DNA of 64,000 nt from Turneriella parva DSM 21527 (GTDB taxonomy: Bacteria; Spirochaetota; Leptospiria; Turneriellales; Turneriellaceae). The stretch is from contig NC_018020.1 of the NCBI RefSeq assembly GCF_000266885.1, forward strand, positions 2,480,001 through 2,544,000, in the 5' to 3' direction. Shown here piece after piece: positions 12,224 to 18,678 of the stretch. Numbering within the stretch: position 1 is the first letter of the stretch; the number at the start of each line of letters is the position of its first letter. The notes beneath the pieces were generated by a model that saw only the letters and a list, made by a program, of their open reading frames with translations, did not search any database and was not told the origin of the DNA. Made by a program: the position numbers and the translations under genes.

Positions 12224-12250
12224 ACGTTCATCAATTTTTAGCGCGACAGG

Positions 12251-12985
12251 TTGAAAATCGAAACGGTATCTGCCCAGGTGCATTCGTTCATGACCGAAGG
12301 TCCCTGCGGCTATTACCCCGAACGGGCTACGCGCAACCGTATGCTGAGCGACGAAAACCATGAGTTTTCGCAGGCGCAGATCACCCGAATTCTGAATAAA
12401 GGCTACCGGCGCTATGGGCCCGATTATTACCGCACGTTTTGCCGGGGCTGCAGAGAATGCACTCCCTACCGCGTGCTCGTCGAGCGCTTCAAACCCGGCC
12501 GCCGTTTTCGTCGGGTGCTCGCCCGCAACGCGGCATGCGAAATTACGTGGGCCGAGCCGAAAGCCTCGCAGGAAAAATTTGAGCTTTATGTGCGGTACCA
12601 GCTTTCGCGCCATAAGAACTTCGGTGATGCGACGATTCTTTCGATTCGGCAAGAACTCGCGGTGGCGATGATACGGCAGATGTATATGAATCCGCAATCG
12701 TCGCTTGAACTCACTGTGCGCGAGAGCGGGCAGGTGCTGGCATTCGCAACGTTTGACGTTACCGACGATTCGCTTTCGGCCGTCTATTCGGTCTTTGAAC
12801 CCGACGTGCCCGAAAGATCGCTCGGTACACTGAATATTTTGTTAGCACTACAGCAGGTGAAAAAGCTGGGTCTAAAATACCTCAACCTCGGTCTGTATCT
12901 CGAAAACCACCCCAAGATGAGCTACAAAGCCAATTTTGGCCCTGCCGAAGTCTATCAGGGCTTTCGCTGGAAATCCAAACAATAA
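12251..12985 (+). CDS. bpt: aspartate/glutamate leucyl (arginyl)-transferase
   Basis: This family transfers Leu (bacterial Bpt) or Arg (eukaryotic ATE1) from tRNA to N-terminal acidic residues, marking proteins for N-end-rule degradation. The 244-residue product has the ATE N-terminal Cys cluster (CGYYPE early, then CRGCRECTPYRVLV near residues 71-84) and the C-terminal acyltransferase fold with the YLNLGLYLENHPKMSYK segment. Length fits the bacterial form. TTG at 12251 is the likely start, since no ATG lies before the conserved Cys-Gly. The adaptor ClpS and ClpAP are not in the window. Confidence 0.88.
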   Translation: MKIETVSAQVHSFMTEGPCGYYPERATRNRMLSDENHEFSQAQITRILNKGYRRYGPDYYRTFCRGCRECTPYRVLVERFKPGRRFRRVLARNAACEITWAEPKASQEKFELYVRYQLSRHKNFGDATILSIRQELAVAMIRQMYMNPQSSLELTVRESGQVLAFATFDVTDDSLSAVYSVFEPDVPERSLGTLNILLALQQVKKLGLKYLNLGLYLENHPKMSYKANFGPAEVYQGFRWKSKQ

Positions 12986-13004: not shown

Positions 13005-13580
13005 TTAGTTTTCCAGATAATCTTTGTCAAAAGAGGTGCGTTCTTTCAGGCGCTGCAGCAGGTTTGCTGCCATGCGCTTCATCGTGCGCTGCGGAACGCC
13101 CAGAATTTTCTCAAGGTCGCTGTATTTGACCTGCTCAATTTTCTGCAGAATAAATAAATTGCGTTCGTTGTCGTTCAACGATTCGAGAAAGCCATCGATG
13201 TGTTTCTCGAGTTCTTTCTGGTAGATCTTACCGACCTGTTCGTCTTTTTCCCAGGTGTCGCTTTCTTGCGTATTTTGCAGGTCACGCGTGAGGCGCCGGT
13301 GAGTGTCGCGCACATAAGTGAGAATAACGTTGCGCGCAGTTTTGACGAGCCACGATTCAATTCGATCAGTCGAGATGTCGAGCTCGGGCAATTTGTCGTA
13401 AAAGGTGATAAAAACCTCTTGCAGCAGGTCGAGCGCTTCGTCACGGTCGCGCACCGAGCGGGTGATGTAGTTGAGCACCCGGTTCTTGCTCTTGTTGTAG
13501 ATGCGCTGAAAATCTGCGTCGAGGGTGCTGCTGCGGTCTGCAGGGGCAGGACGAATCTCGTTGGGGTCAGCGGGAATCAT
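13005..13580 (-). CDS. ECF-type RNA polymerase sigma factor
   Basis: A 191-residue sigma-70 family factor with region 2 at about residues 25-95 (RDEALDLLQEVFITFY, then the -10 binding WLVKTARNVILTYVRD) and region 4 at about 125-185 (LNDNERNLFILQKIEQVKYSDLEKILGVPQRTMKRM as helix-turn-helix). There is no region 1.1 or 3, and no C-terminal extension. It is the last gene of a three-gene operon behind a receiver protein and a membrane CheA-like kinase, only 9 bases after the kinase stop, and no anti-sigma gene is adjacent. The context suggests phosphorelay control of its activity or expression; this is inference. Confidence 0.92.
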   Translation of the reverse strand: MIPADPNEIRPAPADRSSTLDADFQRIYNKSKNRVLNYITRSVRDRDEALDLLQEVFITFYDKLPELDISTDRIESWLVKTARNVILTYVRDTHRRLTRDLQNTQESDTWEKDEQVGKIYQKELEKHIDGFLESLNDNERNLFILQKIEQVKYSDLEKILGVPQRTMKRMAANLLQRLKERTSFDKDYLEN

Positions 13581-13589
13581 CTTGCGCCA

Positions 13590-16277
13590 TTATTTTTTCG
13601 GCAAAACAAAGGTAAACTCAGTAAACTGTTCTTTTGCCCAGCGAATACGAAGTTTGCCGCCGATTTGCCGAATTTTGCGGGCGATGATATCCATGCCGGC
13701 GCCGCGCCCTGCTATCGAACCTTCGCTTTCTGCAGTGCTAAAGCCCGTTTCAAAGATAAAAGTTATGATCTCGTGGTCTGGCATGCGCGCCAGGTCGTCG
13801 TGCGAGGCGAGCTGCCGCGCCGCCGCAACCTGCCGAATTCTTTCGATGTCAAAGCTGCTGCCATCATCACGAATCTTAATGAACAGCGTGTTCTCTTTTT
13901 CGCTGACATCAATCTCAATACGTGCAGTGCGGGGTTTTGCCAGAGCCTCGCGGCGCGCAGGTGACTCGATGCTGTGCGCAAGAGCATTGCGCACACACTG
14001 CACAAGGCCATCTCGGAGTGCCGAAGTATACCGGGATGGTATGAGCTCGGCAGAGAATCGGGTAAAATGTATCTCAGCTTCTTTGCCGAGTTTCTGGCAG
14101 ATTTCAGCCACCATGCGCGGCAGCGCCTCGCGTAAAATATCGATGCTGTTCAAATGCATCGTGCCGGCGTTTTTCTGAAAGTTCAGAATTTTCAGAATCA
14201 TTTCTTCGAATTCTTCGAGCGCACGCTGCAATTCTGTATGCGCCAGATTGACCCCCAAAAGATCAAGGTTTTGCAGCGTATCTTGTTTCAAAAGGGATTG
14301 CAGTTTGTCTTCAAAGGCATGCGCCTGCCCGGCGATAAAATTGACTTTGAAAAGCTGCGCGCTGCCTTTGATGGTATGCGCCGCGCGGTACGCGCGTTCA
14401 AGCCGCTCCCGCACTCCGAGGGCGGTGTCGGGGCTAAGTGCGGTGACAATATCTTCGAGTTCAGATTCGATGCTGCCATAAAATGCCTGCAGGGCCTCAG
14501 GGCTAACGCTGAAAAGAGTTCGCACGATTTCGAGTTGATTCTGGGCGCGCGATTCGCGCTCTTCGATCTCAATCCGCTTTTTCTCTTCCGCCGTAATGTC
14601 GCGGCACGAGGCAAAAGCTGCCATGATGCGGTCGCCCTTGCGCTGGCGCGTAAAATTGAATCGCAAAATCTTCTGCTGCTGCGACCTTAAGCCGCGAACC
14701 GTCACGAGGCTGAGCGGATTCAGCTGCTCCACAGTTTCGTCGTCCATGCTGGGGTTAAACAGAACGTTCAGAAACAGGCGCGCGTCTTCTGACAGAGCTT
14801 CGCCCGTAACCTGCAAAATGACCTCGGCGAACGATTTCTGCACCAGATCTTCATGGTCGACTTCGAGCAACTCAAGAATCTTGGGCGATATCTTGTTGCC
14901 AATGATCTGGTCGCGGCCGATCAGAAAGACACCTTCTGACAGCGCGCCGAGCACAGCATCGCCTTCGGCGCTCAGTTCGGCGATCATCGCCGTGCGCTCG
15001 AGAATTTTGATTTCCATCGAGCTGATGAGCGCGGTATTTTCTTGCGCGAGAATCTCAAGCTTTTCGTAAGCGTGTTCTTGGCGAAGGCTCAATAGCACCG
15101 ACTGCGACATGATGAAACCGATGAGGCCCAGGGGAGCAAGCTCTGGCAGATTAAGAACATTTGCTACCGTCAATATGTCCGCTGTCGCGCCGGCAAAAAG
15201 CAGCACCAGGCCGGCTGCCAGTGTCTTAGCGCCGCGCTCCCTCGCTGCAATCGCGCGAATGATAACGATGCAGCTGTAAATGATCAGCGCCAGAGAAAAC
15301 AGCTGCACGCAACTCAAGGTTTCAGAATACCACCGCGGGGGCAATACCAGCACCGCGAGGCAGAGGGGCAGCATTACGATCAAAATAATGCGAAAGACGA
15401 TCGGGTGAAATTGCCGGGTAAAAACCAACCTCAAAAACCAGGCGCTGAGCGGCACAGCCCCGTAAAATGTGAGGTATGCCAGGCGCGAATTCAGGGTCGA
15501 TGGCAGATCGGCAAACATCGTGAGCAGAAAGCGGTTACCCTCGGCCAGCGGCCTTAATGCAAACAGCAGGCATAAGAGACCGAACGCAAGATTCGATAAT
15601 TCAGAGCGGCGGCGCGCAAACAAGAACATGTGGTGCAGGCCGATGAGCAATATAGCTCCGCATAAAAATGTAGCAGCCATGAAGCTCTGGCTGACGCCAT
15701 TCTGCAGAACCTCGGGCCGACCGAGCTTTACCGTCTGCCAGATACCGCCGTGGCGGTCTTCAAAATTCGACACGTGCATCACCAGGTGTACGGCATTCTT
15801 GCCGTCAGCAGGCGGCAGATTCACGACCTGCGGCTGCGTGCGCGCGACCGATTCATTGGCATGCTTCGCGACCCGACCCATTTGCGCGATTTTGATGCCG
15901 TTGGCGAACAGTGCATACGCAGTGCCGATGTTCGGCAGTCGAAGTGCCAGCGTGCCCTGCGCCTGACCGGTCTGCAGCGTGAGCTCGTAACTTCCCCAGC
16001 CTGTCGCCGGCAGCGCCTGACCCCGGTAGTCGGCACCTTTCCAGGTGCCCCGCACCTTCAGCAGAATTGGCGTCGTTTGTGGTTTAGCTCCATCGACAGG
16101 TATAAACTCATGCCAATAGAATTTCCAATCTCCGTCCAGTGAGACTTCTTGCTGATCGCTGATGCTGTGCCGGGTCAGGTCGGCGACGCCATCGGCGACA
16201 ATTGTTTTGGCTAGCGCGTGGCTTGCCGACGACCACAGTGCCAGCAGCACCGCAGCAAAAATAAAGAATCTTTTCAC
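13590..16277 (-). CDS. 7TMR-DISM sensor with Hpt and CheA-type ATPase domains
   Basis: An 895-residue membrane sensor kinase. Signal peptide at 1-23; extracytoplasmic jelly-roll DISMED2-like domain about 25-190 (LDGDWKFYWHEF start); seven hydrophobic segments about 195-400; a coiled coil about 405-440; a PAS-like domain about 440-560 (GVFLIGRDQIIGNK); then an Hpt domain with phosphorylatable His634 in AAHTIKGSAQLF. The C-terminus is a HATPase of the CheA kind: N box CVRNALAHSIE, DDGSSFD, and GRGAGMD. It lacks the CheA P2, dimerisation and CheW-like modules and has no HisKA domain. GTG start overlaps the receiver stop as GTGA. The likely partners are the receiver upstream and, directly or not, the sigma factor downstream. 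Confidence 0.92.
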   Translation of the reverse strand: MKRFFIFAAVLLALWSSASHALAKTIVADGVADLTRHSISDQQEVSLDGDWKFYWHEFIPVDGAKPQTTPILLKVRGTWKGADYRGQALPATGWGSYELTLQTGQAQGTLALRLPNIGTAYALFANGIKIAQMGRVAKHANESVARTQPQVVNLPPADGKNAVHLVMHVSNFEDRHGGIWQTVKLGRPEVLQNGVSQSFMAATFLCGAILLIGLHHMFLFARRRSELSNLAFGLLCLLFALRPLAEGNRFLLTMFADLPSTLNSRLAYLTFYGAVPLSAWFLRLVFTRQFHPIVFRIILIVMLPLCLAVLVLPPRWYSETLSCVQLFSLALIIYSCIVIIRAIAARERGAKTLAAGLVLLFAGATADILTVANVLNLPELAPLGLIGFIMSQSVLLSLRQEHAYEKLEILAQENTALISSMEIKILERTAMIAELSAEGDAVLGALSEGVFLIGRDQIIGNKISPKILELLEVDHEDLVQKSFAEVILQVTGEALSEDARLFLNVLFNPSMDDETVEQLNPLSLVTVRGLRSQQQKILRFNFTRQRKGDRIMAAFASCRDITAEEKKRIEIEERESRAQNQLEIVRTLFSVSPEALQAFYGSIESELEDIVTALSPDTALGVRERLERAYRAAHTIKGSAQLFKVNFIAGQAHAFEDKLQSLLKQDTLQNLDLLGVNLAHTELQRALEEFEEMILKILNFQKNAGTMHLNSIDILREALPRMVAEICQKLGKEAEIHFTRFSAELIPSRYTSALRDGLVQCVRNALAHSIESPARREALAKPRTARIEIDVSEKENTLFIKIRDDGSSFDIERIRQVAAARQLASHDDLARMPDHEIITFIFETGFSTAESEGSIAGRGAGMDIIARKIRQIGGKLRIRWAKEQFTEFTFVLPKK

Positions 16278-16648
16278 GGCTGGCGCTGGCTCAAAAGTTT
16301 CGTGATGGCAGTTTTCACTGCCTCGGCCGAAACCGGCTTGTTGATGAAGAGCGCCGCGCCGGCGTCGAGTGCTTTCAGAACGACGCTCTTGTCGTTGATT
16401 GCCGAGACGATCATCACCTGGGCTTCTGGTCTGATCTTCTTCATCTCTTTCAGCGCGGCGAGGCCGTCGATGCGCGGCATGGTGATGTCGAGCGTGACAA
16501 TGTCTGGGTGAATGTCGCGAAAAAGTTTAATGGCTTCTTCGCCATCGCGCGCCGTGCCCGCAATTTCAAGGTCAAAGCCTGCGAGAAATTTCTGCATGAC
16601 ATCGCGCATAATCTGCGAGTCGTCGACGATGAGCACTTTAAGCGCCAT
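16274..16648 (-). CDS. single-domain CheY-like response regulator
   Basis: This 124-residue protein is a stand-alone receiver: acidic pair Asp9-Asp10, phospho-acceptor Asp54 in VTLDITMP, the Ser/Thr position in VSAIND and Lys104 in INKP. There is no output domain. Its stop overlaps the start of the membrane Hpt/CheA-type kinase, so it is almost certainly the kinase's phospho-acceptor. It may act on a flagellar, sigma-factor or other target; the ECF sigma gene at the end of the operon is the obvious candidate for linkage. Confidence 0.95.
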   Translation of the reverse strand: MALKVLIVDDSQIMRDVMQKFLAGFDLEIAGTARDGEEAIKLFRDIHPDIVTLDITMPRIDGLAALKEMKKIRPEAQVMIVSAINDKSVVLKALDAGAALFINKPVSAEAVKTAITKLLSQRQP

Positions 16649-16744
16649 TGCAGCTACAATCTGACAGGGCGACAGGCTGAAAATAAAAATGACAACGCCG
16701 TCAATTCATTGACCCAACCTCGGCCGTGTAGCTATTGGTGCACC

Positions 16745-18566: not shown

Positions 18567-18678
18567 GTTATTTGTAGCGCCACGCTGAAAATTATTACGG
18601 CAAAAACAAATTAGACGTGTCAAAAAAAGTGGCAAGACTCAGCATTCGCGCATACCTTGAGGCTATAGAAATCCTGAT

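Follow-up and report, generated by a model that had tools for sequence, protein, structure and literature searches.

The receiver, CheA-like receptor kinase and ECF sigma factor of a Turneriella parva gene cluster

CheA is defined as a protein that combines an HATPase_c domain with a CheW domain (PMC10782961). ECF sigma factors can be controlled by kinases at different levels: in the CseBC–SigE system (ECF39), a two-component system controls the ECF factor at the level of transcription (PMC8999054), and in ECF43 (EcfP/PknT and EcfK/PknS) the sigma factor is activated by phosphorylation (PMC13147305). The locus described here brings a CheA-like kinase and an ECF sigma factor together. It lies in a window of 64,000 nucleotides, the whole stretch of DNA that was analysed (G000:C1:2480001-2544000), within the 4,409,302-base genome of Turneriella parva, which comprises two contigs; positions below are those of the window. 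A receiver (16274-16648), a membrane kinase (13590-16277) and a sigma factor (13005-13580) are all encoded on the minus strand. The stop codon of the receiver gene (16274-16276) overlaps the kinase gene, which starts with GTG at 16277, by 4 bases, and 9 bases separate the kinase stop codon from the ATG of the sigma gene, with no gene between the two; the next gene after sigma is ate, on the opposite strand. Coordinates, overlap and gap agree with a first-pass annotation made from the sequence alone, which had proposed an undescribed system in which a chemotaxis-derived phosphorelay governs the sigma factor. Neither the operon nor the sensor/Hpt/P4 kinase family to which its kinase belongs was found in the literature searched.

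Anatomy of the receiver and the kinase

The receiver is a CheY-like protein of 124 amino acids that carries Asp9, Asp10, the phospho-acceptor Asp54 and Lys104. Its Response_reg domain (Pfam, 2.9e-27) makes up the whole protein and Pfam finds no output domain, in line with its initial description as a single domain.

The kinase, 895 residues long, is built of five parts, all encoded on the minus strand, that were delineated with Pfam, profile comparisons and an AlphaFold2 model (mean pLDDT 85.9). Residues 27-186 (15720-16199) are predicted by the model to form an extracytoplasmic, jelly-roll-like beta domain, and two kinase homologues show weak matches to Glyco_hydro_2_N in this context. The 7TMR-DISM seven-helix membrane domain follows at residues 188-371 (15165-15716), as indicated by the modelled helices and by a match to 7TMR-DISM_7TM (PF07695, 1.2e-20 at residues 202-397), and a long signalling helix (residues 381-434) leads from it in the model to a PAS-like domain at residues 439-560 (14598-14963). 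PAS has no Pfam match in the T. parva protein itself; the assignment comes from the alpha/beta domain modelled there and from a PAS_4 match at the corresponding place in a homologue. Residues 593-705 (14163-14501) form a four-helix Hpt domain (Pfam, 8.1e-10 at residues 594-689) that matches the CheA P1 structures by profile and contains His634 in the sequence AHTIKGS, a histidine invariant in 15 aligned family members. The protein ends with a CheA P4-type ATPase at residues 711-895 (13593-14147), which bears the N box RNALAH, the DDG motif and GRGAGMD, matches HATPase_c (Pfam, 1e-11 at residues 755-894) and superimposes on the CheA P4 structures 1i58 and 1i59 with TM-scores to the target of 0.81-0.89.

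By profile and fold, the Hpt domain is CheA P1-like and the ATPase is CheA P4. No Pfam match to HisKA, H-kinase_dim, P2 or CheW is present in the kinase. The P3 dimerisation hairpin is likewise without a Pfam match; the last Hpt helix (residues 670-705) runs into P4 at residue 711, and of P3 no more than the last part can be aligned to the kinase by profile. The domain order read earlier from the sequence, with its Hpt histidine and without HisKA, P2, P3 or CheW, is thus borne out by Pfam, the profiles and the model, and the structure prediction that had been suggested as a check does return the four-helix Hpt domain and the ATPase.

A kinase family in the class Leptospirae

A profile of the PAS/Hpt/P4 part of the kinase, with which 48 genomes of the class Leptospirae were scanned, defines a family with 43 loci in 20 of the genomes. 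Six of these loci form an orthologous, sigma-linked group and the other 37 lie elsewhere (L073-L081, L129, L179-L205). The N-terminal sensors vary across the family and include 7TMR-DISM, CZB, GAF, PAS and Cache/HAMP domains and an ammonium transporter, and the catalytic part is preserved, with little or no variation in the alignment at His634, the N box, DDG and GRGxGM; a protein motif, EFxFxLP, is common to all members. One member, in G009 (L080:10212-12917), is an Amt-PAS-Hpt-P4 fusion whose N-terminal part matches Ammonium_transp (Pfam, 1.6e-116) and which is encoded beside CheX and a receiver.

Stand-alone receivers are found within 5 kb of the kinase at 34 of the 43 loci, and outside the sigma-linked group the phosphatase CheX accompanies 24 of the 37 kinases and a class III cyclase 17 of them; since contig ends clip the flanks at several loci, these neighbour counts are lower bounds. 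Neither CheX nor a cyclase occurs at the sigma-linked loci (0/6), and none of the other 37 loci has an ECF gene within 5 kb. The T. parva pair shares the hallmarks of the family, namely a variable sensor, a PAS-like domain, Hpt, a C-terminal CheA P4 and a linked single-domain receiver. The family thus unites receptor, Hpt domain and CheA ATPase in one protein, with CheY, CheX and often a cyclase as partners, and would offer a simple setting for CheA chemistry without receptor arrays.

The biochemical steps of the relay, all of which we infer, would run as follows. The 7TMR-DISM receptor part and the PAS-like domain would control the P4 ATPase, which would phosphorylate His634 of the attached Hpt domain; the phosphate would then pass to Asp54 of the receiver, which, free to diffuse, would carry the signal to a target elsewhere.

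The sigma factor and its upstream region

The sigma factor has 191 residues and consists of sigma2 (approximately residues 21-95; Pfam Sigma70_r2, 2e-13) and sigma4 (approximately residues 131-180; r4_2, 7.9e-5, just below the Pfam cut-off) only, the domain content of ECF (group 4) factors, and it carries the core-binding motif E48xxD51xxQ54E55. Its matches to NCBIfam subfamilies all fall below the cut-off, and its AlphaFold model is modest (pTM 0.41) and was used for the fold only. The sigma family is sharply bounded: among the 393 genomes searched across the phylum, 12, all from the order, match at an E-value of 3e-81 or better and the next match is at 8e-23, and a second collection of genomes, scanned with the sigma family, yielded the same relatives and unrelated ECF factors. 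No anti-sigma candidate adjoins the sigma gene in the 12 genomes that have this factor, as read from their open reading frames, and the first-pass statement that none is linked therefore stands. For comparison, another T. parva ECF gene is directly followed by a ChrR-cupin gene. Several ECF genes of T. parva (L106, L110, L113 and L118) are followed, in the usual place of an anti-sigma gene, by open reading frames of 76-301 amino acids without a Pfam match, which may possibly represent undescribed anti-sigma families. Elsewhere in the genome, at G000:C1:3690576 and 3729085 (L115 and L111), two similar modules each combine a recombinase-like reading frame, an unnamed reading frame and a 246-aa sigma-like protein; they are possibly mobile elements with a sigma factor of their own.

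The receiver–kinase–sigma order is kept in six of the seven members of the genus Turneriella and was found nowhere else among the relatives compared, most of which are metagenome-assembled genomes. As five species besides T. parva share it, with kinase identity down to 45%, the arrangement is not due to chance; nor is it confined to this one genome, a finding that the first-pass annotation had said would refute its reading had it been so. The kinase–sigma spacing is also short: it ranges from -1 to 9 nt across the six kinase-bearing genomes although the kinase has diverged widely, a sign that there may be selection for co-transcription.

The distribution of the sigma factor is wider than that of its neighbours. 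A kinase orthologue is present in only six genomes, and sigma orthologues that are 85-97% identical over the matched stretch occur in all seven genus members and in G041, which belongs to the nearest other genus. Within the genus, the conservation of sigma comes close to that of RpoB (84-97% whole-length identity versus 90-94% for rpoB); in G047, identity to the window is 84% for sigma, 90% for rpoB, 61% for the receiver and 45% for the kinase. In G045, a genus member 99% complete, and in G041, the locus has neither receiver nor kinase, and a sigma factor of 85-88% identity keeps its syntenic place between conserved flanking genes, asd and ate. These are the only two kinase-less genomes with a close sigma, and G041 is 54% complete. 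The G045 protein closest to the kinase, at 30% identity, is another member of the family (L075). Among all 191 positions, residue 111 alone (Glu versus Gln/Lys) separates the sigma factors with the relay from those without it. In four other relatives, a sigma factor of 35-40% identity directly follows miaB (G031, G039 and G040; G036 by its upstream sequence). Trees of the genus, from rpoB alone or from a six-gene concatenation, have support too weak to tell a kinase gained once and lost in G045 from one lost twice, and were rejected as a means of dating these events. Since relatives keep the sigma factor almost unchanged without the kinase, kinase and sigma are probably neighbours on the DNA and not one new circuit.

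These observations bear directly on post-translational control, in which the phosphorylated receiver would bind the sigma factor or free it from an unlinked anti-sigma factor. The tight gene order in six species, a receiver without output domain, the lack of a linked anti-sigma gene and the absence of CheX, the usual receiver partner (0/6 versus 24/37), would all agree with such a link. It is nevertheless quite improbable, given a sigma factor that hardly changes where receiver and kinase are lacking and differs by one discriminating residue, the lack of an ECF gene near any other kinase of the family, and a core-binding motif that is intact, hence no obvious need of activation. The more specific proposal that the one-protein receptor phosphorelay of Turneriella took over a resident ECF factor, its receiver replacing an anti-sigma factor as direct regulator at the place taken by CheX and a cyclase in relatives, we regard as slightly less probable still.

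The junction between kinase and sigma genes points to another arrangement. An alignment of the 60 nt that precede the sigma start shows about 38 nt common to kinase-bearing and kinase-less genomes. This block, TACTGwGTTTACC...CCrAAAAAATAATGG, is the 3' end of the kinase gene where a kinase is encoded. For 8 of 12 genome pairs none of 1000 shuffles aligned as well, which holds for the G041 block against five of six genomes and for the G045 block against G044, G043 and G047; among other 60-nt windows along the kinase gene in the genomes tested, 0 of 127 scored as well. The block is absent from G042. In five genomes, 19 of 251 conserved kinase codons are synonymously invariant, a gene-wide rate of 8%, and 7 of the 19 fall within the last 11 codons. 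Five of them are consecutive, F885-T889 (TTTACTGAGTTTACC, 13611-13625, minus strand), and nowhere else in the gene do three or more such codons follow one another. A putative promoter of the sigma gene, TTTACC-N16-AATAAT (13589-13616, minus strand), spans the 3' end and stop codon of the kinase gene and matches the consensus at 9 of 12 positions, a pattern that by consensus alone is no more frequent than chance (3 found versus 3.4 expected). The shared block and the frozen codons together make it probable that sigma is transcribed from a promoter of its own, which the kinase 3' end overlaps and whose leader is very short. A search with TACTGwGTTTACC revealed no regulon, the block being unique in the genome (4 matches with at most one mismatch, 6 in the control).

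The frozen 3' end might instead be an operator or another cis-element, or be kept for translational coupling to sigma. A direct repeat, TTTAC-N4-TTTAC, within TTTACTGAGTTTACC and the weak -10 match of AATAAT would fit this, as would the protein motif EFxFxLP, which all members of the kinase family share. Constraint on the protein leaves synonymous sites free to vary, however, the block occurs in kinase-less genomes too, and its distance of about 20-23 nt from the start resembles that of the promoter-like elements before asd in relatives; we consider these readings rather unlikely.

The elements before asd belong to a type that also precedes the receiver. A promoter-like element of the type TTTTCAnCCTGTC, ATTTTCAGCCTGTC, lies 22 nt before the receiver start (16671-16684, minus strand), and within the window TTTTCAnCCTGTC elements are found 20-23 nt before start codons at 12245-12258, 16671-16684 and 18579-18592, all on the minus strand. 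At the same position upstream of asd, TTTTC, TTTAC, TTGAC or a close form occurs in nearly all of 18 genomes of the order (L216-L233). Autoregulation by the ECF factor through TTTTCAnCCTGTC was considered, as 12 exact TTTTCANCCTGT sites against 0 in the reversed control looked sigma-specific, and was rejected, as the counterpart before asd is present also in genomes of the order without this sigma factor. The element therefore reads as an ordinary -35-like element, and the TTTTCAnCCTGTC type suggests ordinary promoters with very short leaders.

Co-expression as the only link, with one transcript tying the dose of sigma to the expression of the receptor genes and the regulon of sigma working alongside the relay output, would accord with this element before the receiver and with genes that, in each of the six genomes, overlap or lie no more than 9 nt apart. 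It sits less well with a probable promoter of the sigma gene itself and with G045, which retains sigma without the receiver–kinase pair, and appears doubtful.

The reading we hold to be likely, with some reserve, is that receiver and kinase act together as a single signalling unit and that sigma is a separately inherited factor, independent of the relay, with its own promoter in the kinase 3' end. The activity of that promoter and the missing regulatory link are, like phosphotransfer, what we infer from the anatomy, the distribution and the shared block. The sigma factor would be supplied from this promoter and possibly by read-through, with no requirement for the relay, and would be limited by its own amount or by an unlinked factor. 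What the first-pass annotation described as a phosphorelay module beside an ECF gene without a linked anti-sigma gene is real in six species, and its further claim that the relay governs sigma is not supported, on several counts: the near-identical sigma in the same syntenic place without receiver or kinase, with one discriminating residue, the miaB neighbour in other families, the 37 kinase loci without an ECF gene and the apparent promoter. The supposed undescribed system comes out as a local variant of known parts. The locus also illustrates that a tight, conserved gene order can mislead, as sigma persists where its neighbours are lacking and its probable promoter lies in the coding end of one of them.

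Comparison with described systems

Like ECF43, the T. parva locus places an ECF gene beside a membrane kinase without an anti-sigma gene. The kinase, however, is of the Hpt/P4 and not of the Hanks Ser/Thr type, and as the sigma factor keeps the acidic ExxDxxQE core-binding motif, activation by phosphorylation of the ECF43 kind is not indicated. With CseBC–SigE it has in common that genes for a sensor kinase and a receiver adjoin an ECF gene to which no anti-sigma gene is linked; it differs in that the receiver has no DNA-binding domain, the kinase is not of the HisKA type and sigma is retained without the system. As in PhyR–NepR–EcfG (ECF15), kinase and response regulator are encoded beside the ECF factor, but the receiver has no sigma-like domain, the kinase is not of the HRXXN type and no nepR-like gene lies beside sigma at the T. 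parva locus. The defining features of both PhyR/NepR/EcfG and CseBC are missing, and the locus was rightly set apart from them at the outset.

A further counterpart is found in CheA–CheY. The Hpt and P4 domains of the kinase match those of CheA in sequence and fold, the receiver is a CheY-like single domain, and relatives carry CheX. In T. parva, receptor and kinase are one protein, in contrast, and P2, P3 and P5/CheW are lacking; without CheW, the kinase is not a CheA by the published definition (PMC10782961). Most likely, the relay works like a stripped CheA–CheY pair with a built-in receptor.
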